In this document: one piece after another, positions 16,263-30,943 of the stretch
Position numbering within the stretch: the first letter of the stretch is position 1
Layout of the letters: every line of letters begins with the position of its first letter
NCBI GenBank assembly: GCA_028690555.1
Contig: JAQVBA010000004.1
Span: 1-39,821, forward strand
DNA length: 39,821 nt
From: Acholeplasmataceae bacterium
Lineage (GTDB): Bacteria; Bacillota_I; Bacilli_A; Acholeplasmatales; Acholeplasmataceae
Direction of reading: 5' to 3'
The notes under the pieces: generated by a model
Database searches by the model: none
What the model was told of the DNA's origin: nothing
What the model saw: the letters and a program-made list of their open reading frames with translations, nothing else
Position numbers and translations under genes: made by a program

Positions 16263-17774
16263 TTGAAAAAGATATTATATGGTTTTCTACTGATTGGATT
16301 TGCTATATTGCTTGTTGGATGCAAACCTAATGCATACGATTCATTAAAAGAGACCAATCCACAACATGATATTTATTATCAAATCTTTGTGAGATCATTT
16401 GCAGATAGCAATAATGATGGCATTGGCGATTTAAATGGGATTAAAGAAAATCTCGATTACTTAAGTGATTTGGGAGTCACCGCTTTATGGCTTTTACCCA
16501 TTCATCCTTCCCCTTCTTATCACGGCTATGATGTCAAAGATTATTTAGATATCAATCCCGAATATGGAACGATGGATGATTTTGAATCGCTCATTGAGGC
16601 AGCAAAAGATGAAGGGATTAAAATCGTCATCGATTTAGTCATTAACCATACATCAGATCAACACCCATGGTTTATAGATGCTAACTCTTCAACGAGTTCG
16701 GCGTATCGAGACTATTATATTTGGCAAAATGGGAATGCTTTTGAATCTTTTGTTGGTGGAATGAAAGATTTGAATTTCCAAAATCAAGAAGTCATCGATG
16801 AAGTAAAATCAATCATGGATTTTTATTTGGAAAAAGGAGTTCATGGATTTAGAATTGATGCGGCTAAGCATTTGATTGAAAGTTCAAATCCAACCTTTGA
16901 TAATACCTTTTTACTTTTAGAATTGAATCAACATATGAAAGAAAATTATCCGGATAGTTTTATCGTGTCAGAAGTATTTGAATATTTCTACCCGATGGTT
17001 GCGGATTATTATATTGGCTCTGACTCAGCATTTAATTTCTATGCCGCCCAACAAATTTGGGAGAAGGTTGGGAGATTAAATAGCCGTTATTTATTGGCAT
17101 CAAATCTTCATAAAGTATATGAAGACTATCGTGATGTTGATCCTGATTTTATTGATTCACCATTTTTAACCAATCATGATCTAGACCGTTTAGCATCTAC
17201 TGAAGGTTTTATCAATCAACCTGATAAATTGGCTTTAGCAGCTAGAATTTTATTGACACTCCCAGGTAGCCCCTTTATTTACTATGGGGAAGAGTTAGGA
17301 ATGAAGGGATATAGAGATTATAGTCAAGATGGGAAAATTGTTCCAGGTTATGGCATTGCTTATGATGAATTTAGAAGAACCCCATTTTTATGGGGTGATG
17401 AAAATAAAAACACCACGTGGTTTCCCGATTCTGCAAATAGCGAAACACCTTCATTAGAAGAACAAAAACTTGATGAGACATCACTATTTATGGTTTATAA
17501 AACAATGATTTCATTTAGAAAAGACCATCCTGCCTTAATGTTTGGTAATGAGTATCTTCCTTATGGTGGAAATGATGGTCAAATACAAGGTTATATTAGA
17601 AGTTATCAAGATGAAAATGTAAAACAAGCCCTTATCGTTATTCATAATTTATCATCTGATGCTTATACACTGACTTTTGAAGGCGGTACTGTGGTTTATG
17701 GTTCAAAAGATATGGCACCTTTTGGCACTGTGATTATCGAAATTGATTATGAAGATATTGAGGTGTATGCCTAA
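16263..17774 (+). CDS. Lipoprotein GH13 alpha-amylase family enzyme
   Basis: TTG start, lipobox 'AILLVGC'; 'IYYQIFVRSFADSNNDGIGDLNGI', 'VIDLVINHTS', 'HGFRIDAAKHL', 'IVSEVFEY', 'FLTNHDLDR'. Confidence 0.92.
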   Translation: MKKILYGFLLIGFAILLVGCKPNAYDSLKETNPQHDIYYQIFVRSFADSNNDGIGDLNGIKENLDYLSDLGVTALWLLPIHPSPSYHGYDVKDYLDINPEYGTMDDFESLIEAAKDEGIKIVIDLVINHTSDQHPWFIDANSSTSSAYRDYYIWQNGNAFESFVGGMKDLNFQNQEVIDEVKSIMDFYLEKGVHGFRIDAAKHLIESSNPTFDNTFLLLELNQHMKENYPDSFIVSEVFEYFYPMVADYYIGSDSAFNFYAAQQIWEKVGRLNSRYLLASNLHKVYEDYRDVDPDFIDSPFLTNHDLDRLASTEGFINQPDKLALAARILLTLPGSPFIYYGEELGMKGYRDYSQDGKIVPGYGIAYDEFRRTPFLWGDENKNTTWFPDSANSETPSLEEQKLDETSLFMVYKTMISFRKDHPALMFGNEYLPYGGNDGQIQGYIRSYQDENVKQALIVIHNLSSDAYTLTFEGGTVVYGSKDMAPFGTVIIEIDYEDIEVYA

Positions 17775-18613: not shown

Positions 18614-18636
18614 AAGGTGCTTTGGCACCTTTTTTA
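18614..18636 (+). terminator. Rho-independent terminator
   Basis: AAGGTGC-TTTG-GCACCTT then TTTTT. Confidence 0.8.
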
Positions 18637-19032
18637 TTTATCAAATATTAAATTATTTTCTTGGAGCTTTAATCCAAAATTATCTTCATTTAAATTAACG
18701 TCATAAGTAAGATAACCATAGTCATTTTGTTCATTTCCAAAGGCTTCTTCACTTGAATAGAAATAGATGGTTAAAACCCTATGGGATTGTCCAATGGTAT
18801 TAAAGTTTTGTTCATAGATTAGACTTGCAGAAGAATAAGCAATTTCTGTAAGTTCATCTTTAATGGTTAATTCAAATGGAATGACAATATAAGCCTCAAT
18901 TGAGCCATCTTCAATGACTTCATCCATCAATAATACATCAACGTCAATAGGCTCTCCTTCATAAATACTGTTACACCCAAAAAGAAGGATAGAAATCATG
19001 AAAAGTAGTGGAACTAATACAATTTTTCTCAT
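18634..19032 (-). CDS. Hypothetical lipoprotein
   Basis: Signal 'MRKIVLVPLLFMISILLFGC' lipobox; no recognised domain. Confidence 0.65.
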   Translation of the reverse strand: MRKIVLVPLLFMISILLFGCNSIYEGEPIDVDVLLMDEVIEDGSIEAYIVIPFELTIKDELTEIAYSSASLIYEQNFNTIGQSHRVLTIYFYSSEEAFGNEQNDYGYLTYDVNLNEDNFGLKLQENNLIFDK

Positions 19033-19034
19033 GA

Positions 19035-21965
19035 TTAGTATCCTCCCTTTCTATTGACAAGATTGACATTGAATCGACGTCCCTCTACAATGACTGTAAA
19101 GAAGTCAATGGAAGCTTTACCATCTTTTGTCGTTCTGACGGTGACGGTATAACGTGCTGGGATTTTTGTGTTAATGAGGCTTTGATATTCAATTTCAGCA
19201 TCTTCAATGAGTGTTGTCAAGTTACTGTTGATATCATAAGATTTTTTAGCAGGAACGATGACTTCTTTTTGATTAAATCCAACGGCAAGCTGTTGTTCAA
19301 CCAAAATAGTGGTTGTGTGACTTAATGCAAAAGCAATGCCAGAAATAATTTCACCGTGATCTAAGGTTGGACCTTCTGCAGTGGTTAAGATTCGATAGAA
19401 CTTTTCTGGATCAAGATCAACTAAAGTTAATCCTGATTTTGGATTTGCACTATGGATGACAATCAGATCAGGAGTTCCATTTTCACCAGCAATCTTAAAA
19501 GCAACCGCTTGATCACCACTATCTGTTTCTAAGAATGAAAGACGTGTATTGATGCTTGATGCATCGGTCATTCTAAAGTGATCATAGGTTTTTCTAATTT
19601 GAATAAGTGCTTTATAGTATTCAAAAACATCGACATAATCGGCTTTTCGATCCCATCTTAGTTGATTGACATCATCAGGTGATTCATAGGAATTATGATC
19701 AAACCCACCGGTAGGTAGAGGTTTTGAACGCATCATTTCAGCACCTGCATGAATAAATGGGATTCCTTGAGCCGTTAAAATGATGGCATTTGCTTGAATT
19801 TGCATATCGCGAATATATGTATTAGATACACCGGTAAGTTTTAATTTGTCGTATAAGGTATTATTATCATGAGCAGTGACATAATTGATGGTTTGATCTG
19901 GTGTTTCTGCAAATGTTGAGACTTCAGTAATCCCAGGATATGAAATTCCACCTACTATCCCATATTTCACTTTTTGGATGATGCCATCATTGACTTTACC
20001 TTGAACAAATCCACCTTCGTTTGCTGTCCACACAGAACCTTTGACTGCATCTCTTGTGTGGTCATTAAATGCGCCGACATGATTTAGATTAGATAAGTTT
20101 TGTTGGTTGGCTGAGATGGATGAATCCATTTGAGAAGTACCACCCATCCAAGGTTCACCATAAACAACTATCGTTGGATCAATTTCATATAACTTTTCTT
20201 TAATTAAATTCATGGTTTCAACATCATGAAGCGCCATAAGATCAAATCTAAAACCAGAAAGATTATATTCATTGGCTAAGAATAAGACTGAGTCCACCAT
20301 AAATTTTTGCATCATCGATCGTTCTGAAGCTGTTTCATTACCCGTACCAGAACCGTTAGAGAATCCTCCATCATTTGTCAGTCTATGATAATAACCAGGA
20401 ACGATTTTATGGAAATTCGAGGTTTGAGATTCACCGGTATGATTATAGACAACATCCATAATGACTCTAATATCCTCATTGTGAAATGCTTGAATGACTT
20501 GTTTAAATTCATTAATTCTGGTGCCACCATCAAATGGATTTGTTGCATATGAACCTTCTAGTGTATTAAAGTGATAAGGCATATAACCCCAGTTAAATAT
20601 TTTCGTATAGTTTGGGTTCTCATAAGCTTCAATTTCATCCACATAACCAAAATCAAAAATAGGGAGAAGTTGAACGGCATTGACGCCTAGTTCAACAATG
20701 TGATCAAGACCCGTAGTTACAGTTTTTCCATCTTTTGAAAAAGTGGTACCTTTTTCAGTAAGACCTAAAAATCTTCCTCTATAGGATTCATGACCATTCC
20801 ATGAACTGTGCGTCGTTAAATCTCTGACGTGAAGTTCATAGACTATATAATCTGTTAAATTTGTAATCGTATCCGGACGGCTGTTATATGTCCAGTTTTC
20901 AGGATTTAATTGACTAAAATCAACAATCATGCCACGAAGTCCATTTGCACCTGTGGAATAGGTATAAGGATCTGTGACTTCATAAGTATTGCCATCATTG
21001 GTGACACTAAATGTATAGTATTTGCCATGAAGATGACCATCTAGTTTGATTTCCCATGCACCATTTTCAATTTGGTTTAACTCATGGGTTTCATAAGGTG
21101 TTTCTTCTAAATGCTCACTTCCAGAATTATCATAATTTGGATGTCCTTGGTTGTATAAATTTAAGGTTACACTTTCACTAAGGGGTGCCCATAATCTAAA
21201 GATGGTTTGATTATTATCAAATGAGACTCCAAGCGTACCAGTATACGTATAAGCTTGTTCAAACATTGGTGTATCATAAAGATTTTCTAAGGATACAACT
21301 TTTTCTAAGACACGATTATCTGGATAGGTTGCAACAACTTTATACGTTTTTTGAATATCCAAGTTTTCAACTTCGATGGCAAAACTTCGTGTTGTAGGAA
21401 TACCATTGTAAATTTCTACATCGCTTTCAAATATTTGGAAAGCTTCAGGAATTTCAGAAACAACGGTGATAATACGTCCATCTTCATCAAAATAACTTCT
21501 AAGGATCTTTGCTCGATAATCAGGAATATGATTTGCTAAATCAGAAGTAGAAGTACCGATTCTTAAATCTCCTTCAACAAAATAAGCATGAGCCTTTCCA
21601 TCGATGATTTCGATATTTGTTAGATCAATAAAGCGATCGCCACCCACTTCACGATATCCCTCCCATCCACCTTGCTTAATAATGATACCTACTTGGGTCG
21701 TTTCTGGGAAATTGGGATAGCTTTCAGTTAAATTGACTTCATAAAATACACCGTGTTCATCTTTGTTTTCTATGGAGAAATCAAATTGAACACCACCTCC
21801 ATCTTTTGGAGCTTTTGGCCATAGCCAGAAATTAAAGTTTTCATAGTTGTCATCATAACGGTAATAATGAACAACCAAATGGGTAGGGAGCGTACTTGCT
21901 AACGTTGTGATGCCAAATCCAAGCGTTATAAACAGTAAAAGCACCCATGCGACTAGTTTTTTCAT
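19035..21965 (-). CDS. Secreted type I pullulanase (N-terminal CBM41/PUD-like, GH13_14-like)
   Basis: Signal peptide 'MKKLVAWVLLLFITLGFGITTLAS'; 'LVVHYYRYDDNYENFNFWLWP' CBM41; 'NWGYMPYHFNTLEGSYATNP', 'VIMDVVYNHTGES', 'SGFRFDLMAL', 'VVYGEPW', 'TAHDN'. ORF track start 21980; ATG 21965 follows GAGGAGG. Confidence 0.92.
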   Translation of the reverse strand: MKKLVAWVLLLFITLGFGITTLASTLPTHLVVHYYRYDDNYENFNFWLWPKAPKDGGGVQFDFSIENKDEHGVFYEVNLTESYPNFPETTQVGIIIKQGGWEGYREVGGDRFIDLTNIEIIDGKAHAYFVEGDLRIGTSTSDLANHIPDYRAKILRSYFDEDGRIITVVSEIPEAFQIFESDVEIYNGIPTTRSFAIEVENLDIQKTYKVVATYPDNRVLEKVVSLENLYDTPMFEQAYTYTGTLGVSFDNNQTIFRLWAPLSESVTLNLYNQGHPNYDNSGSEHLEETPYETHELNQIENGAWEIKLDGHLHGKYYTFSVTNDGNTYEVTDPYTYSTGANGLRGMIVDFSQLNPENWTYNSRPDTITNLTDYIVYELHVRDLTTHSSWNGHESYRGRFLGLTEKGTTFSKDGKTVTTGLDHIVELGVNAVQLLPIFDFGYVDEIEAYENPNYTKIFNWGYMPYHFNTLEGSYATNPFDGGTRINEFKQVIQAFHNEDIRVIMDVVYNHTGESQTSNFHKIVPGYYHRLTNDGGFSNGSGTGNETASERSMMQKFMVDSVLFLANEYNLSGFRFDLMALHDVETMNLIKEKLYEIDPTIVVYGEPWMGGTSQMDSSISANQQNLSNLNHVGAFNDHTRDAVKGSVWTANEGGFVQGKVNDGIIQKVKYGIVGGISYPGITEVSTFAETPDQTINYVTAHDNNTLYDKLKLTGVSNTYIRDMQIQANAIILTAQGIPFIHAGAEMMRSKPLPTGGFDHNSYESPDDVNQLRWDRKADYVDVFEYYKALIQIRKTYDHFRMTDASSINTRLSFLETDSGDQAVAFKIAGENGTPDLIVIHSANPKSGLTLVDLDPEKFYRILTTAEGPTLDHGEIISGIAFALSHTTTILVEQQLAVGFNQKEVIVPAKKSYDINSNLTTLIEDAEIEYQSLINTKIPARYTVTVRTTKDGKASIDFFTVIVEGRRFNVNLVNRKGGY

Positions 21966-21984
21966 AATGAACCTCCTCAAGTTT

Positions 21985-22148: not shown

Positions 22149-23963
22149 ATGAAGAAAGTATTATTAGTTCTTCTACTTGTTGCAGCATTCGGTCTCTTCG
22201 GAGTTCGTGCATTTGCAGAAGGAGAAGGTACAGGAAACGTAGTTATTCATTTCAAAGCTTGGGATGAAGACTATACTGAACTCGGTTCATGGGCTTGGGG
22301 CGGACCTGCCGCAGGTAAAGTTTATGATGGACTCGATGATTTCGGTGCATACTGGGAATACAACGATATTCCAATTGATGTTGAAATAGGATTTATTGCC
22401 GTCCTATGGCCAGGTGGTGCAGGCCCAAATTGGGATGCTAAACTAACTGGTGATGTGAAGATTGCTCCGAATTCAATTGTAGAAGGTGAAACAACGCACA
22501 TTTATGTATTTGAAGGTGCAGTCACTAGTGATGATCATCCAGGGTATTATATTGCTCAACCAGATAAATTAAATATGCTTGTGATTTATTATGACTCAAC
22601 AGGAGCATATGAAGAAAAACTTGGTGTCCATGCATGGGGTTGGGTTGATATCGCACCAAGTTGGGGCGATCCATATCCAATGACAAATGCTGGTAAAACA
22701 GCTGCTGGATTAGATGTTAAAGCATTAATGCTATCTGCGGATGCAGCAGGTGCCGGTTTATTAGTTTATGCTGGCGATGATGCAACAAAGAAAACTGGCG
22801 ATGTGAAGCTTGATGATTCAGGCGCAGCTGTTGCTGGTGATGTTGGTATTGCATATGTCGTTGGTAAAGGTGATGCTTACACTGCAGGTGATAACGTATT
22901 CTATAATGATTACGCAGCATTTGCTGAAGAAGCATTCTCATTTAAGTTAATGGCATTTGATGCTGCTGAAATGAGTGGTACTTATGCAGTTGATCCACAA
23001 ACTATTATTGTGAAGACAAGTGCTCCAATTGCTTCTCCATATCCAACAGCAGATGATAAAGATGCAGCAAGAGCTATTATTGAAAGCTGGTTCAAAGTGT
23101 ATGAAACAGGTTCAACTACGCCACTTGCAATTGAAAGAGTTGACTTTGCATCATCTAATACAACATTGAATCAATTCGTTGTCATTTTAGAAGATGAAAT
23201 GGATAACACTAAGAATTACGAATTATTCTTCAACTTGAATCAACCAGATGAAACATTAGAAGTTGCAAAAGAAATTTCAGTGACTATTAATGTTACAGTT
23301 CCTGAAAATACACCTGAAGGTGCAGCAATTAGTCTTGCTGGTAATATTACAGGTAACGGATGGACTCCTGGTCTTGAAGCGTTTACTGCAACTCAAGTTG
23401 GCGATACACTTGTTTACTCAGTGACATTCAATGTTTCAGTGACGGATCCATTTACTAATTTTGAATACAAATGGACAAGAGGTTCATGGGATAATGATGA
23501 ATTCATTGCTACAAACCGTCCATTAGTAATTCCAAATAACGTGGATTCAATCGTATTTGAAGATGAAGTAGAAGCTTGGAAAGACATTGATGCTCCTGCT
23601 GAACAATATGATGCTCCAGTACGTGTAGCAACATTAAATGTTAAAGCATCCATTATGCTTGCCATGGATACTGAAGCTCCAGAAATTCAATTCATTTCAC
23701 CAACAAATATCGTAGGTAAAGATGCATCTGAAAGAATTATTGAAGTTGCTTGGGGTGTTCCATTCAATCAAAACTCATTCCCAAGATTTAGAGCAACTGA
23801 TGATCGTGATGGCGATTTAACTTCATTCGTATTCGTACCAAAAGGTGATTTCTCGGTATTGAATACAGCAAAAGAAGGCGACTACACAATTATGTTACAA
23901 GTCAGCGACAAGTGGGGTAATGTCACTCAAGAGACATTCATCTTCCGTGTCGTTAAGGAATAG
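22149..23963 (+). CDS. Secreted non-catalytic multidomain starch-binding protein (CBM41-like, starch-binding-like and DUF5011-like domains)
   Basis: Signal peptide 'MKKVLLVLLLVAAFGLFGVRAFA'; 'NVVIHFKAWDEDYTELGSWAWGG'; 'ISVTINVTVPENTPEGAAISLAGNITGNGW...FEYKWTRGSWDNDEFIATNRPL'; C-terminal 'RATDDRDGDLTS...EGDYTIMLQVSDKWGNVT'. No GH13 catalytic motifs, lipobox or C-terminal TM. Confidence 0.7.
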   Translation: MKKVLLVLLLVAAFGLFGVRAFAEGEGTGNVVIHFKAWDEDYTELGSWAWGGPAAGKVYDGLDDFGAYWEYNDIPIDVEIGFIAVLWPGGAGPNWDAKLTGDVKIAPNSIVEGETTHIYVFEGAVTSDDHPGYYIAQPDKLNMLVIYYDSTGAYEEKLGVHAWGWVDIAPSWGDPYPMTNAGKTAAGLDVKALMLSADAAGAGLLVYAGDDATKKTGDVKLDDSGAAVAGDVGIAYVVGKGDAYTAGDNVFYNDYAAFAEEAFSFKLMAFDAAEMSGTYAVDPQTIIVKTSAPIASPYPTADDKDAARAIIESWFKVYETGSTTPLAIERVDFASSNTTLNQFVVILEDEMDNTKNYELFFNLNQPDETLEVAKEISVTINVTVPENTPEGAAISLAGNITGNGWTPGLEAFTATQVGDTLVYSVTFNVSVTDPFTNFEYKWTRGSWDNDEFIATNRPLVIPNNVDSIVFEDEVEAWKDIDAPAEQYDAPVRVATLNVKASIMLAMDTEAPEIQFISPTNIVGKDASERIIEVAWGVPFNQNSFPRFRATDDRDGDLTSFVFVPKGDFSVLNTAKEGDYTIMLQVSDKWGNVTQETFIFRVVKE

Positions 23964-23974
23964 GAGGTCCAATC

Positions 23975-25309
23975 ATGAAAAAATTATTAACAGTACTAGT
24001 TGTATTACTAGCTGCATTTGCACTTGTTGCATGTGGACCTAAAAATGAAGGCGAACTTATTGACTTCGGTGACACATTCGTTCAAAAATCAAAAATCCGT
24101 GTTTGGATTGATGATGAAAATGGCGAATATATGGAAGCAGTCATTGCTGAATTTAACAAATTATATCCAAATATCGTTGTTGAACATCAACACATGGGTT
24201 CAGTTGATTCACGTGAATTATTAAAGACTTTCGGTCCTTCTGGTAATGGTGCTGACGTCTTCCAATTCCCACATGACCATATGGCTCAAGCGGTTTTAGA
24301 AGATTTAGTTTATCCACTTCCAGCTGCGACTCAAACATTATTAAACGAACGTGCACATGAACTTGGTATGAGCATTGCAACGTTAACTTATGACGAAATT
24401 GCTAAATCTTTCGATCCAGCATCTCCAAATGCTGTTGAAAGAGTTTATGGTGTTCCAATGAGTGTTGAATCCGTTGGCTTATATTACAACACTGATTTAG
24501 TGACTTCTGTTCCTACAACTTACGAAGCTTTATTAGCTGAAGTTGCTGCATGGAATGCTGAAGCTGCAGCAGATGGTTCTGGCCGTACGAATGCTGAAGC
24601 AGGTTTATTCGGTCTTGCAATATCAAGCCATTGGGCAGATAGTTATTTCAATCAACACATTTATTCAGCATTTGGATTCTATCCATTTGGTGATGAATTA
24701 AATGATCCTTCTGCCGTTGGTTATGTCAATGCAGCAGACGCACTAACTTGGATGATTACTGAACTTAAACCATTAACAACTGGTACAGGTAACCATAACT
24801 CAGTGACTGGTGGAACAAACTTTGAAGAAGGTAAAATTCCTTATATCATTGCTGGTCCATGGAACATGGAAGCTTATGATGCAGCAGGTGTAAATTACGC
24901 AGTTGCTCAAATGCCAACGATTAATGGCGAAGCTACACAAACATTTGCTGGTGCAATTATTGCAGCTGTTTACAAGTATTCAGAAAATAAAGAAGATGCC
25001 ATTAAGTTTGTTGAATTCTTAAATTCTGATATCGCAATGGAACTTCAATATCAATTCAAGAAGAAATTACCAGCACTTAAATCAGATCTACTTGCAAATA
25101 TCGAAGGTGTTAGTGATAATGCGAAGTTATTAGCAATGTCACAACAATTAGAAACATCCGTTCCAATGCCAGTCATTCCTCAAGTTACATATTATTGGGG
25201 ACCAGGCGAAACAATGGTTATTGATGTTTGGAATAATGGTAAGGCAGTTGCAGACGCAGTTGCTGATGCAGAAAAATCTTATCGTACATTAGCTGGTTTA
25301 GCTAGTTAA
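23975..25309 (+). CDS. Maltodextrin-type ABC transporter substrate-binding lipoprotein
   Basis: Lipobox 'AAFALVACGPK'; 'IRVWIDDENGEYMEAVIAEFNKLYPNIVVEHQHMG', 'ADVFQFPHDHMAQ', 'EGKIPYIIAGPWNMEAY'. Confidence 0.9.
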   Translation: MKKLLTVLVVLLAAFALVACGPKNEGELIDFGDTFVQKSKIRVWIDDENGEYMEAVIAEFNKLYPNIVVEHQHMGSVDSRELLKTFGPSGNGADVFQFPHDHMAQAVLEDLVYPLPAATQTLLNERAHELGMSIATLTYDEIAKSFDPASPNAVERVYGVPMSVESVGLYYNTDLVTSVPTTYEALLAEVAAWNAEAAADGSGRTNAEAGLFGLAISSHWADSYFNQHIYSAFGFYPFGDELNDPSAVGYVNAADALTWMITELKPLTTGTGNHNSVTGGTNFEEGKIPYIIAGPWNMEAYDAAGVNYAVAQMPTINGEATQTFAGAIIAAVYKYSENKEDAIKFVEFLNSDIAMELQYQFKKKLPALKSDLLANIEGVSDNAKLLAMSQQLETSVPMPVIPQVTYYWGPGETMVIDVWNNGKAVADAVADAEKSYRTLAGLAS

Positions 25310-25385: not shown

Positions 25386-25397
25386 ATGGAGGGCAAC

Positions 25398-27743
25398 ATG
25401 AAGTTTATGAGTGTGTTAAAAGCAATTTTGTCAGGCTTAGTATGGGGACTAGGTCAACTTTTCAATAGGCAATATTTCAAAGCCTTATTCTTTTTTATTT
25501 TTTTCGTGGGGTTTATCTTAATTGAATTATTAACAGGTAGTTATTTCATAGAGAAAGATGCATATGATAAATTACCTGGTAAAAATTTTGGTGATAATTG
25601 GGTTCAAGAAGGATTTTTACCAGAATATTTTGAAAACTCATTAAGTGATGGTGGCTATCAGCCATTTGAAGATTACTTGCTTGAAATTGGCGGTGCTGAT
25701 CAACTAGATGAAACTGCATTTGTTGCATTTTTAGCTCGTGATTTACAAGAAAATAATCCAATTACCTATACGAATCTATTAACCAATCAGATCACTTTGC
25801 AAGATGATTTTGATGAAACTGGGATCGTTCATATCAACCGAAAACAAAATCTTTTTAAAGATAGTCAAGGATTGTACTATGTTGAACGAAATATTACATT
25901 AGAAGACGGAAGCAATAAAAAAGAATACATTGAAACAACACCACTCTCAGGGGTTTTAAATGAAAGTAATGTGTTATTAAGTACTGATGGACTCACGCCA
26001 TTTAACAAGAGTGGTGAGGTGTTCAAAAGCGGTTCTAGTTTGTATGTTAGAGCTGCTGATGGTGGTATTAATGTTTACATCAATATTTCGACTGAACAAC
26101 TTGAATCTGTCACTTCCCCAACAAAAGTGAATGTTCAAGGACCGATTTATGTAAAAAATAATGAGATTTTCGAATACTATGAAGCTGGGCTCATGTATAA
26201 TTCAGTTCGCTTGCAATATTTGGAAACACCATTTTTTGTTAACTTTAGACAAGCCATGTTCTATACTTATTCTTATGCATGGAACGAATATAATAATAAT
26301 GATTATACGCGCTTAATGCTTAGGGTCTATTTAGATTTAAATCCAGAATTAAGAGATCAATTTAGAACAGACTATAATAATTTCTTCTATGATAATGCGG
26401 GTCTTTTTGTAAGAGGCTATTGGGCTGTTGGAACACTTGGTGTTGCACACAAAGTCAATTTCACGGGTCATGCTGCTTTAAATGATGCGATGATTGGAAC
26501 GCAAAGCTCTCCATTTAACTTGATTGGTAAAGTGACGATTTTAGAACCCATTCCAATTCAAGGACACGTTTCAACGATGCTACTCTTAGAAGGTTTAATT
26601 GGAGTCATCTTGTCATTATTCTTCTTTATCTTTGGTTTCTGGAGCATTCGTGATGCGTATAAGATTAGTGAGAAGAAGCGTTTAAACCAAGAAGTTGTTA
26701 ATGATAAAGAGTATTTTAAAGATGTTTATGAATCCGGATTTGAATATATCGTTTTATCTCCTGCTATCTTTGTTTTAGCATTTATTTCGATTATGCCGAT
26801 TGCATTTGGTTTTGTCATTGCATTTACTAGTATTTCAGGGAATGAATCGATGATGAACACCTTTGATTGGGTAGGATTTAAAAACTTTCTAGCGCTTTTT
26901 AATTTTACATCAGGACTTGGAGCTTCCTTTGGACAAGCCTTTTGGCGTGTCTTATTATGGACAGTTTTATGGGCAATCTTGTCAACCTTTACAGTATTCT
27001 TCGGTGGATTTATCCAAGCACTTATTTTAAATAGTGAACGTGTTGTGTTTAGAAAATTATGGCGAACTATATTGATTTTGCCTTGGGCAATTCCTGCCTT
27101 ATTATCACAAATGGTATTTTCAGTTATTTTTAATGAAAATGGCTTTATTAATACATTCCTACAGGATATAGGCGTTTATACAATCTTAAACAACTTAGGT
27201 ATGCTTGGAGTTGATTTCTCTTCACTCTCAGGTATCGATAGGCTCTTTTATTTAGGTGCAGATAACATTCAATGGTTTAGTAATTCCTTTAACTCAACCT
27301 TTGTTAGAACAACCCTAGTTGTCGTTAATATTTGGCTAGGGTTCCCATACTTTATGGCACTTATGACTGGTATTATGACTGCCATTGACTCAACACTTTA
27401 TGAAGCTGCTGATATTGATGGAGCAACGGGTATGCAAAAGATTACAAAGATTACCATGCCACTTGTATTATATTCAACAGCACCCATTTTAATTATGACA
27501 TTTTCGGGGAACTTTAATAACTTCGGGGTCATCTACTTTATTACAGGTGGTGGACCGAATGCCGGACATGCCGGCAGGGGGTTTGCTGGAGATACAGATA
27601 TCTTGATTTCATGGATGTATAAGTTGACAGTTGATTATTCAATTTTCAACATGGCATCCGTCTTCTCAGTTCTAATATTCCTATTTGTGGGATCACTTAC
27701 AGCATGGAATTTATCACGAACTAGAGCATTCCAGGAGGACTAA
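25398..27743 (+). CDS. Maltodextrin ABC transporter permease (MalF-like) with ~345-aa extracytoplasmic insertion
   Basis: C-terminal permease EAA loop 'EAADIDGATGMQKITKITMPLVLYSTAPILI'; 'ALILNSERVVFRKLWRTILILPWAIPALLSQMVFSVIFNENG'. ORF track start 25386; ATG 25398 follows GGAGG. Confidence 0.92.
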   Translation: MKFMSVLKAILSGLVWGLGQLFNRQYFKALFFFIFFVGFILIELLTGSYFIEKDAYDKLPGKNFGDNWVQEGFLPEYFENSLSDGGYQPFEDYLLEIGGADQLDETAFVAFLARDLQENNPITYTNLLTNQITLQDDFDETGIVHINRKQNLFKDSQGLYYVERNITLEDGSNKKEYIETTPLSGVLNESNVLLSTDGLTPFNKSGEVFKSGSSLYVRAADGGINVYINISTEQLESVTSPTKVNVQGPIYVKNNEIFEYYEAGLMYNSVRLQYLETPFFVNFRQAMFYTYSYAWNEYNNNDYTRLMLRVYLDLNPELRDQFRTDYNNFFYDNAGLFVRGYWAVGTLGVAHKVNFTGHAALNDAMIGTQSSPFNLIGKVTILEPIPIQGHVSTMLLLEGLIGVILSLFFFIFGFWSIRDAYKISEKKRLNQEVVNDKEYFKDVYESGFEYIVLSPAIFVLAFISIMPIAFGFVIAFTSISGNESMMNTFDWVGFKNFLALFNFTSGLGASFGQAFWRVLLWTVLWAILSTFTVFFGGFIQALILNSERVVFRKLWRTILILPWAIPALLSQMVFSVIFNENGFINTFLQDIGVYTILNNLGMLGVDFSSLSGIDRLFYLGADNIQWFSNSFNSTFVRTTLVVVNIWLGFPYFMALMTGIMTAIDSTLYEAADIDGATGMQKITKITMPLVLYSTAPILIMTFSGNFNNFGVIYFITGGGPNAGHAGRGFAGDTDILISWMYKLTVDYSIFNMASVFSVLIFLFVGSLTAWNLSRTRAFQED

Positions 27744-29202: not shown

Positions 29203-29211
29203 TGATATAAT
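29203..29211 (+). promoter_or_regulatory. Extended -10 promoter (TGATATAAT)
   Basis: 22 nt before ATG 29234. Confidence 0.5.
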
Positions 29212-29233
29212 GGGGGTACGAGGAGATTTATTC

Positions 29234-29533
29234 ATGAAAACATATCTTTATAAACTCACATTAACTAAACGATTATGGGATGAAAAAAATTGGACTAAAA
29301 AGGATGAAGAGATTATAGAAAAGCATTTTTTGAGAATTAAAAATGATTTTGAGCTTGGTAAAATCATTCACGTTGGAAAAACGATGAAAGAGGATATGCA
29401 TGGGTTTGGCATTGTTGTATTTAAATGTGAAGATGAAGAAGAAGCAAACGCATATATGCAAGATGATATCGCAATCAAAGAAGGTTTAATGACTGGAATT
29501 TGTCTCGAATATAAAGTGATATTTCAAAAATAG
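29234..29533 (+). CDS. YciI-like small protein
   Basis: 'YLYKLTLTKRLWDEKNWTKKDEEIIEKHFLRIKNDFELGKIIHVGKTM...GFGIVVFKCEDEEEANAYMQDDIAIKEGLMTGICLEYKVIF'; ATG 29234 with AGGAG RBS. Confidence 0.7.
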   Translation: MKTYLYKLTLTKRLWDEKNWTKKDEEIIEKHFLRIKNDFELGKIIHVGKTMKEDMHGFGIVVFKCEDEEEANAYMQDDIAIKEGLMTGICLEYKVIFQK

Positions 29534-29542
29534 AGGAACGAA

Positions 29543-30943
29543 ATGCAAATTGGCAAAAGAAAAAAGCATCAATGGCTAGATGATTTTAGATCAATTAAAA
29601 ATATAGATGATTTTTTTCAATTTTTCTCTAAAGAAAGATTGAGCAAAATCGCATTATACTTACTTATTATATGGAGTGTTATCCCACTTTTTTTAATGAT
29701 CTTAAGTATATTTTTAGATAGAAGTTCGGCATTTTCATTCATGTTCAATAGTGGGAGATTAACCATTATTTGGTATATGCTGATGCAACAAATCGGCTAT
29801 TTAGGTATAATCATGACAGTAATCATTATCCTAAGTAGTTTAAGGAATAAATCAAAAAATAAAATACCAACAAAAATTTATGTTTTTGAACATAAAGTAG
29901 AACTATTCCTTCTTTTGTTTTTATTATGGAGTTTGATTTCTTCGCTATTTTCTAGCGATCAAGCATTATCATTTTTAGGTACGGATTATCGTAAAGATGG
30001 ATGGTTAAGTTATCTTTCTTATAGTGGATTTTTTGGATTAGGATACTTGTTATTTAAAGAAAAAGATATCATTCGATTGTTGAGAGTTTTAGGCACTGTC
30101 GCCTCCATACTTGGGGTGTTATTGATTGTTAATATGGAATCCATTAATGAAATATTCACCTTTTATCATAAGAGCACAGTTTTTTATAATCCCAATCATA
30201 TGGGTTATTATTTAGTAATTTCGATTTTATCTTTAACCTATTTATCGATCAGAAAACCAAAGATTGATATTGATAAGGTCATATGCTATATACTCTTTTC
30301 AATCCTCGTGGTAGCTTTGATTGAAAACGGTTCATTTGGGCCATATATTGCAGTTAGCATGGGATTATTATTTTTAATGATTATGACGTTTGTTTTAAAG
30401 AAAAATAAGATGATTCATTCCATAAGTATCACTATTTTATTTATCGGTATTTCAGTGATTATGAATTTCGAGTCCAGCTTTTTATCTAATGAGACAAATC
30501 ATTTATCGGAAGGTATTGATGATATTATTGAAGACAAAGAAGATGCTGATCGTGCTGGTTCAGGAAGATGGGGTTTATGGACTAATGGTATTGAATTTAT
30601 GTTAGATAAACCGGTTACTGGATACGGGATTGAAAATTTAGAAAATGCGTATCTTGAAGTAGACATTATTCAAGATCGGCCACATAACGAATTCATACAG
30701 ATTGCAGCAACCACCGGTATCGTTGGTTTCATTATATATAGTTGTGCCATCGGTTTTCATTTTCTTGATTTTTTGAATCTGAGAAAGAATATAACCTACG
30801 AACAGATTGGAATCTTTATGATTGTTTTTGGATATTTGGTGTCCTCATTTTTTGGAAATTCGATGTTTTATACCACCCCATTTTTTATGATGATTTTAGG
30901 TTTATCAAAGTCGATGATTTCTAATCAAAAAGTGTTGATGTAA
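29543..30943 (+). CDS. O-antigen ligase (Wzy_C) family polytopic membrane protein
   Basis: Many TM helices; 'NPNHMGYYLVISILSL', 'GSGRWGLWTNGIEFMLDKPVTGYGIENLENAYLE...RPHNEFIQIAATTGIVGFIIY'. Confidence 0.85.
   Translation: MQIGKRKKHQWLDDFRSIKNIDDFFQFFSKERLSKIALYLLIIWSVIPLFLMILSIFLDRSSAFSFMFNSGRLTIIWYMLMQQIGYLGIIMTVIIILSSLRNKSKNKIPTKIYVFEHKVELFLLLFLLWSLISSLFSSDQALSFLGTDYRKDGWLSYLSYSGFFGLGYLLFKEKDIIRLLRVLGTVASILGVLLIVNMESINEIFTFYHKSTVFYNPNHMGYYLVISILSLTYLSIRKPKIDIDKVICYILFSILVVALIENGSFGPYIAVSMGLLFLMIMTFVLKKNKMIHSISITILFIGISVIMNFESSFLSNETNHLSEGIDDIIEDKEDADRAGSGRWGLWTNGIEFMLDKPVTGYGIENLENAYLEVDIIQDRPHNEFIQIAATTGIVGFIIYSCAIGFHFLDFLNLRKNITYEQIGIFMIVFGYLVSSFFGNSMFYTTPFFMMILGLSKSMISNQKVLM

Follow-up and report, generated by a model that had tools for sequence, protein, structure and literature searches.

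A predicted secreted, non-catalytic multi-CBM protein from the maltodextrin-importer operon of Acholeplasmataceae, a candidate for starch capture in a wall-less lineage

The protein described here, X, is encoded within a stretch of 39,821 nucleotides from an Acholeplasmataceae bacterium (the window), and is composed of several starch-binding-type modules. X probably catches starch for uptake, because it has such modules, has no enzyme domain, and is encoded next to an importer. Our preferred reading, to which we give a probability of about 0.7, is that X would serve to capture alpha-glucans within a surface system for the use of starch and glycogen, probably docked, at least in part, by its C-terminal domain (D5) following the loss of a transmembrane (TM) segment. 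We regard the architecture and the link to the operon as firm, and the proposed function as a well-supported inference. The features are listed in Table 1.

Table 1. Features of X and of its neighbourhood in the window.
Feature	Coordinates	Strand	Basis or remark
X, non-catalytic multi-CBM secreted protein, 604 aa	22149..23963	+	ORF, Pfam/NCBIfam
X signal peptide, residues 1-26, SPase I type, no lipobox	22149..22226	+	KD19 2.53
D1, CBM41, residues 27-137	22227..22559	+	Pfam PUD; Thermotoga CBM41 2j71; Foldseek 2j72/2j43
D2, second CBM41-type, residues 138-262	22560..22934	+	second PUD stretch; hhalign; tandem 2j43/2j44
D3, Ig-like linker, residues 263-374	22935..23270	+	AlphaFold2 model; Sap/SbsC whole-chain Foldseek
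D4, CBM20-type module, residues 375-496	23271..23636	+	Foldseek glucoamylase/CGTases; CBM_20 on homologous modules
D5, C-terminal Ig-like, residues 497-604	23637..23960	+	best conserved; homologous to pullulanase C-terminal domain
malE, maltodextrin-binding lipoprotein	23975..25309	+	11 bp downstream of X
malF, enlarged extracytoplasmic region, 785 aa	25386..27743	+	Pfam/NCBIfam
malG, N-terminal extension, 461 aa	27747..29132	+	Pfam/NCBIfam
GH13 alpha-amylase, lipobox-like N-terminus (LVGC)	16263..17774	+	
pulA, type I pullulanase: CBM41, CBM48, GH13, C-terminal Ig-like, no TM	19035..21980	-	
small lipoprotein, directly 3' of pulA	18634..19032	-	candidate membrane partner of pullulanase

X was searched against Pfam and NCBIfam, profiles were compared with each other using hhalign, and an AlphaFold2 model was searched using Foldseek. 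Pfam identified the PUD/CBM41 domain (PF03714) in two stretches, the better of which covers residues 31-123 (E 8.4e-11), with a PUD score of 43 bits against a curated cut-off of 25. It also gave a sub-threshold Ig-like match at 545-596, no glycosidase family and no Alpha-amylase domain; there were no NCBIfam families, and the GH13 catalytic domain of type I pullulanases (TIGR02104) is missing. The AlphaFold2 model has a mean pLDDT of 85.7 and a pTM of 0.61. Its best Foldseek match is to the tandem CBM41 of streptococcal pullulanases (2j43, E 3.5e-7), with further matches to Klebsiella pullulanase, S-layer Ig-type proteins, glucoamylase, CGTases and Thermotoga CBM41. In glucoamylase and the CGTases the starch-binding domain is CBM20.

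From the Pfam, model and Foldseek results we read X as five domains, the bounds of which are predictions. An earlier note on this DNA, made from the letters alone, had proposed a CBM41-like N-terminal segment, a second domain, a starch-binding-like domain, a DUF5011-like C-terminal domain and no GH13 motifs, and had suggested domain parsing as a check. The parsing found carbohydrate-binding modules and no catalytic domain, and most of that description stands. The second domain is present and can now be named as a second CBM41, on the basis of its profile-profile match to D1 (88%, E 3e-6). The S-layer matches (Sap/SbsC) probably belong to D3. D4 has no Pfam match in X itself; homologous modules match CBM_20, at E 2.8e-7 in the L051 locus, where the CBM_20 match overlaps the D4 HMM match, and Foldseek matches D4 to 2vn4 and to CGTases with probabilities of 0.85-1.00, so that the starch-binding-like domain is probably of CBM20 type. 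Short forms of the family, which are about 490 aa long, lack D4, and the copy of Acholeplasma granularum (L058/L093) has a similar module elsewhere in the chain; D4 therefore behaves as a movable module. The C-terminal domain is Ig-like, as the sub-threshold match had indicated, and it also resembles the C-terminus of pullulanase.

Residue conservation was counted in 30 homologues. The CBM41 ligand positions, which we take to be aromatic, Lys and Asp residues, were mapped onto X by alignment to 2j71. In D1, W50 and W95 are invariant, K98 is kept in 29/30 and D102 in 27/30; in D2, W163, W172 and K214 are invariant, and K215 and D218 are each conserved in at least 90%. W405 and W447 of D4 are kept in all 18 of the homologues that carry this domain. 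The conserved ligand positions support the modules being of the alpha-glucan-binding type, and the most likely role of X is to capture alpha-glucans for import by MalEFG.

The X reading frame has an ATG start with AGGAGG upstream, and is no chance ORF, because homologues are found in 45 of the 161 genomes of the order. Its signal peptide, predicted also by the earlier note, ends in an AxA-type site (cleavage between AFA and EG), and a signal peptidase I gene is present in the genome, which supports X being a secreted protein. The same note had seen no lipobox, LPXTG or C-terminal TM, and this is confirmed: X and all homologues checked lack Cys within their first 35 residues, which speaks against a lipoprotein anchor of the SusE/SusF type, and the last 60 residues reach a maximum KD19 of only 0.58. 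Sortase was absent from the 11 genomes tested. Neither a PBP transpeptidase nor a sortase was found in the window's genome, which is 87.6% complete; an LPXTG motif on X is therefore not expected, and the wall-less lineage that had been suggested is indeed Acholeplasmataceae, described as wall-less (PMC11122141).

The position of X, which had been noted as directly upstream of the ABC binding protein, is highly conserved. Within the clade (Acholeplasmataceae) X directly precedes malE in all 33 readable loci, and outside it in 13/16, the exceptions being L119 and L124, both from one other family, and L123, where a D4-like module is all that is present. The gap between X and malE has a median of 11.5 bp, and X stays with malE where pulA is not adjacent. 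X is therefore part of the maltodextrin-importer operon. Other genes of the locus are those for glycogen phosphorylase, GH13 enzymes and a branching enzyme. A co-occurrence of X with the expanded MalF, proposed as a further check, holds throughout the order: nearly all carriers of X have the enlarged MalF, and in G013 and G150, two carriers of a full-length MalF that lack X, malF is near the start of a contig. MalF itself is closest to E. coli MalF.

The earlier note compared X to the N-terminal half of the pullulanase encoded next door. This is right for D1, which matches the pullulanase CBM41 (96%, E 2.6e-9), and incomplete, because D5 is homologous to the C-terminal Ig-like domain of pullulanase (88%, E 3e-6): X resembles the enzyme at both ends. 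A further parallel drawn between ARAIIESWFK... in X and RAKILRSYF... in pullulanase, compared as D3 against pullulanase segment 143-245, is not supported (2.5%, E 0.019 in the profile-profile comparison) and was rejected. X and pulA form a divergent pair in most loci. In the interval between them there are candidate operator-like sites with 1-2 mismatches to LacI-type consensus strings, while promoter-like sites are no commoner than in shuffled sequences.

How X is retained had been called unclear, and the homologues now give part of the answer. Outside the clade, each of the 16 homologues (L104-L110, L117-L121, L124-L127) has a C-terminus that is hydrophobic and TM-like, with KD19 of 1.68-2.88 and in most cases followed by K/R; within the clade it occurs in 0/31 copies, with KD19 at most 0.95. 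Since it is homologues in related families that carry this segment, the lack of an anchor in the clade is derived, by loss, and since all 16 have it the ancestral role of X would be at the surface. Mapped onto a MalF tree, the trait shows one change, which points to a single loss at the base of the clade. LPXTG/MYXO-CTERM sorting was considered for the outgroup copies and rejected: L106 and L110 score 20.7 and 23.1 bits against the LPXTG_anchor cut-off of 15.9. The others score below it and a search of those genomes for sortase found none, and we therefore read the segments as plain TM anchors. D5 is the most conserved domain, at 65% mean identity against 50-53%. It exceeds D1-D2 by 0.14 in homologues without the TM segment and by 0.04 in those with it, in pairs that are non-independent; because the excess is larger where the TM segment was lost, it suggests that D5 may have taken over attachment.

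There may be a parallel in pullulanase. In 25/25 genomes a TM-less pulA is directly followed by the gene for the small lipoprotein (gap -40 to +13 bp), and in 9/9 cases in which pulA has a C-terminal TM this gene is absent, with a gap to the next gene of 44-59 bp where measured. The association has a Fisher p of 2.6e-8 with kinship ignored. On the tree the lipoprotein and pulA TM traits each undergo three changes, and the two go in opposite directions; this leaves 2-3 independent contrasts, which are too few for the pattern to reach significance. Pullulanase may nevertheless have exchanged its C-terminal TM for a small-lipoprotein anchor, parallel to the change in X. The window's copy of the lipoprotein has no Pfam match; its model is confident (pLDDT 89.4), and a search of the PDB gave no match at E <= 0.001. 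As an anchor for X too, the small lipoprotein was rejected, as it does not fit L082 and L088.

In the model that we propose, X would be exported by Sec and processed by signal peptidase I. Its two CBM41 modules, together with the CBM20-type module in long forms, would bind chains of starch, glycogen or pullulan and keep them near the surface pullulanase, the lipoprotein amylase and MalE, and MalE would pass maltodextrins to MalFG. In relatives X would be held by the C-terminal TM segment; in Acholeplasmataceae, where this was lost, it is probably held, at least in part, by docking of D5 onto a membrane partner, which could be MalE, MalF or another lipoprotein. A bolder extension is that docking to lipoproteins or to MalF has replaced the C-terminal anchors of both X and pullulanase, giving a complex for starch capture, debranching and import around MalEFG on the naked membrane, with the small lipoprotein as a new adaptor family. 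We offer this only tentatively, as something that may well prove wrong.

Because no anchor is visible, X could also be freely secreted and coat or loosen starch away from the cell, which we consider rather unlikely. It would agree with the SPase I signal, with the absence of a lipobox or TM from every clade copy and of sortase, and with the example of Cgt from Actinoplanes, a secreted starch binder that has only a CBM20 domain and is not thought to be membrane-anchored (PMC7275007). However, it does not account for X being fixed beside malE, for the TM-like anchor of all the homologues outside the clade, or for D5 rather than the carbohydrate-binding modules being the best conserved part. The homology of D5 to the pullulanase C-terminal domain, the divergent gene pair and the pattern of the small lipoprotein would suit a role of X mainly as a scaffold for pullulanase, the two Ig-like domains docking onto the same lipoprotein in a small starch-degrading complex. 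This is unlikely, and a little more so than free secretion: in L082 and L088 X is TM-less even though the small lipoprotein is missing, and in L102 it stays with malE when pulA is not adjacent. Finally, X might serve for adhesion to glycogen, from the environment or from a host, and not for feeding, given that the tandem CBM41 of streptococcal pullulanase binds alpha-glucan, including host lung glycogen, according to PDB titles and a reference title in PMC2582482. We regard this as very improbable, in view of the catabolic operon and of free-living carriers such as Peloplasma aerotolerans, which came from a mud volcano (PMC11122141).

Starch-binding proteins without catalytic activity are already known. 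SusE and SusF are outer-membrane lipoproteins that work with SusC and SusD. In Bacteroides thetaiotaomicron they are non-enzymatic starch binders of the uptake system (PMC10826348). Like X, they are non-catalytic, have several starch-binding domains and are encoded with an importer; unlike them, X has no lipobox, and belongs to a cell with one membrane, no wall and MalEFG in place of SusCD. The functional analogy made by the earlier note is therefore fair as a possible mode of working and not as descent. The tandem CBM41 of streptococcal PulA/SpuA (2j43, 2j44) has the fold and tandem order seen in X, but is part of a pullulanase anchored to the cell wall by LPXTG (PMC2582482), whereas X has neither a catalytic domain nor a wall anchor. 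Sas20 of Ruminococcus bromii is a surface starch binder with two discrete binding domains, with no enzyme activity described (PMC9112005); it differs from X in being part of an amylosome and in having other kinds of binding domain, and the abstract mentions no importer operon. Cgt of Actinoplanes sp. SE50/110, which is secreted, unanchored and non-catalytic (PMC7275007), has a single CBM20 domain, compared to two CBM41 and a CBM20-type module, within an importer operon, in X. In the open-access literature we found no description of the importer-linked X family, of a link between CBM41 and ABC importers, or of the anchor loss. X is thus a plausible wall-less counterpart of the surface glycan binders of Bacteroides and gut Firmicutes, linked to an importer in several families of the class. 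It raises the question of how bacteria with no wall and no sortase keep polysaccharide-handling proteins at the surface after loss of a TM segment, for which the pattern of pullulanase and its lipoprotein is a concrete lead.

X is carried by A. laidlawii, A. oculi, A. granularum, A. equifetale, Haploplasma modicum and P. aerotolerans, as well as by related Tenericutes/Bacilli MAGs. Haploplasma axanthum, from the same genus as H. modicum, uses starch, glycogen and dextrin; for the carriers A. laidlawii and Peloplasma, starch is not among the listed substrates (PMC11122141). PulA and glycogen genes were already known in environmental Tenericutes (PMC7301438).

Some further observations concern the loci themselves. 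The enlarged extracytoplasmic region of MalF (25386-27743) is poorly conserved. Between malG and glgP, at 29210-30943, lie a YCII-like ORF and a gene resembling O-antigen ligase (Wzy_C); among the loci compared, homologues at this place are confined to the genus of the window (L031, L032). At L086:8471-9384 malE is broken into two ORFs, and a frameshift or an error of assembly is the apparent cause. The MalG homologue at L100:5814-8663 is 949 aa long; its N-terminus is lipobox-like, and an aBig_2 domain precedes the permease domain. In L051 (3854-8656, minus strand) and L128 there is a 1600-aa protein, also with a lipobox-like N-terminus, that combines about six modules of the D4/CBM20 type with aBig_2 domains and an esterase domain.
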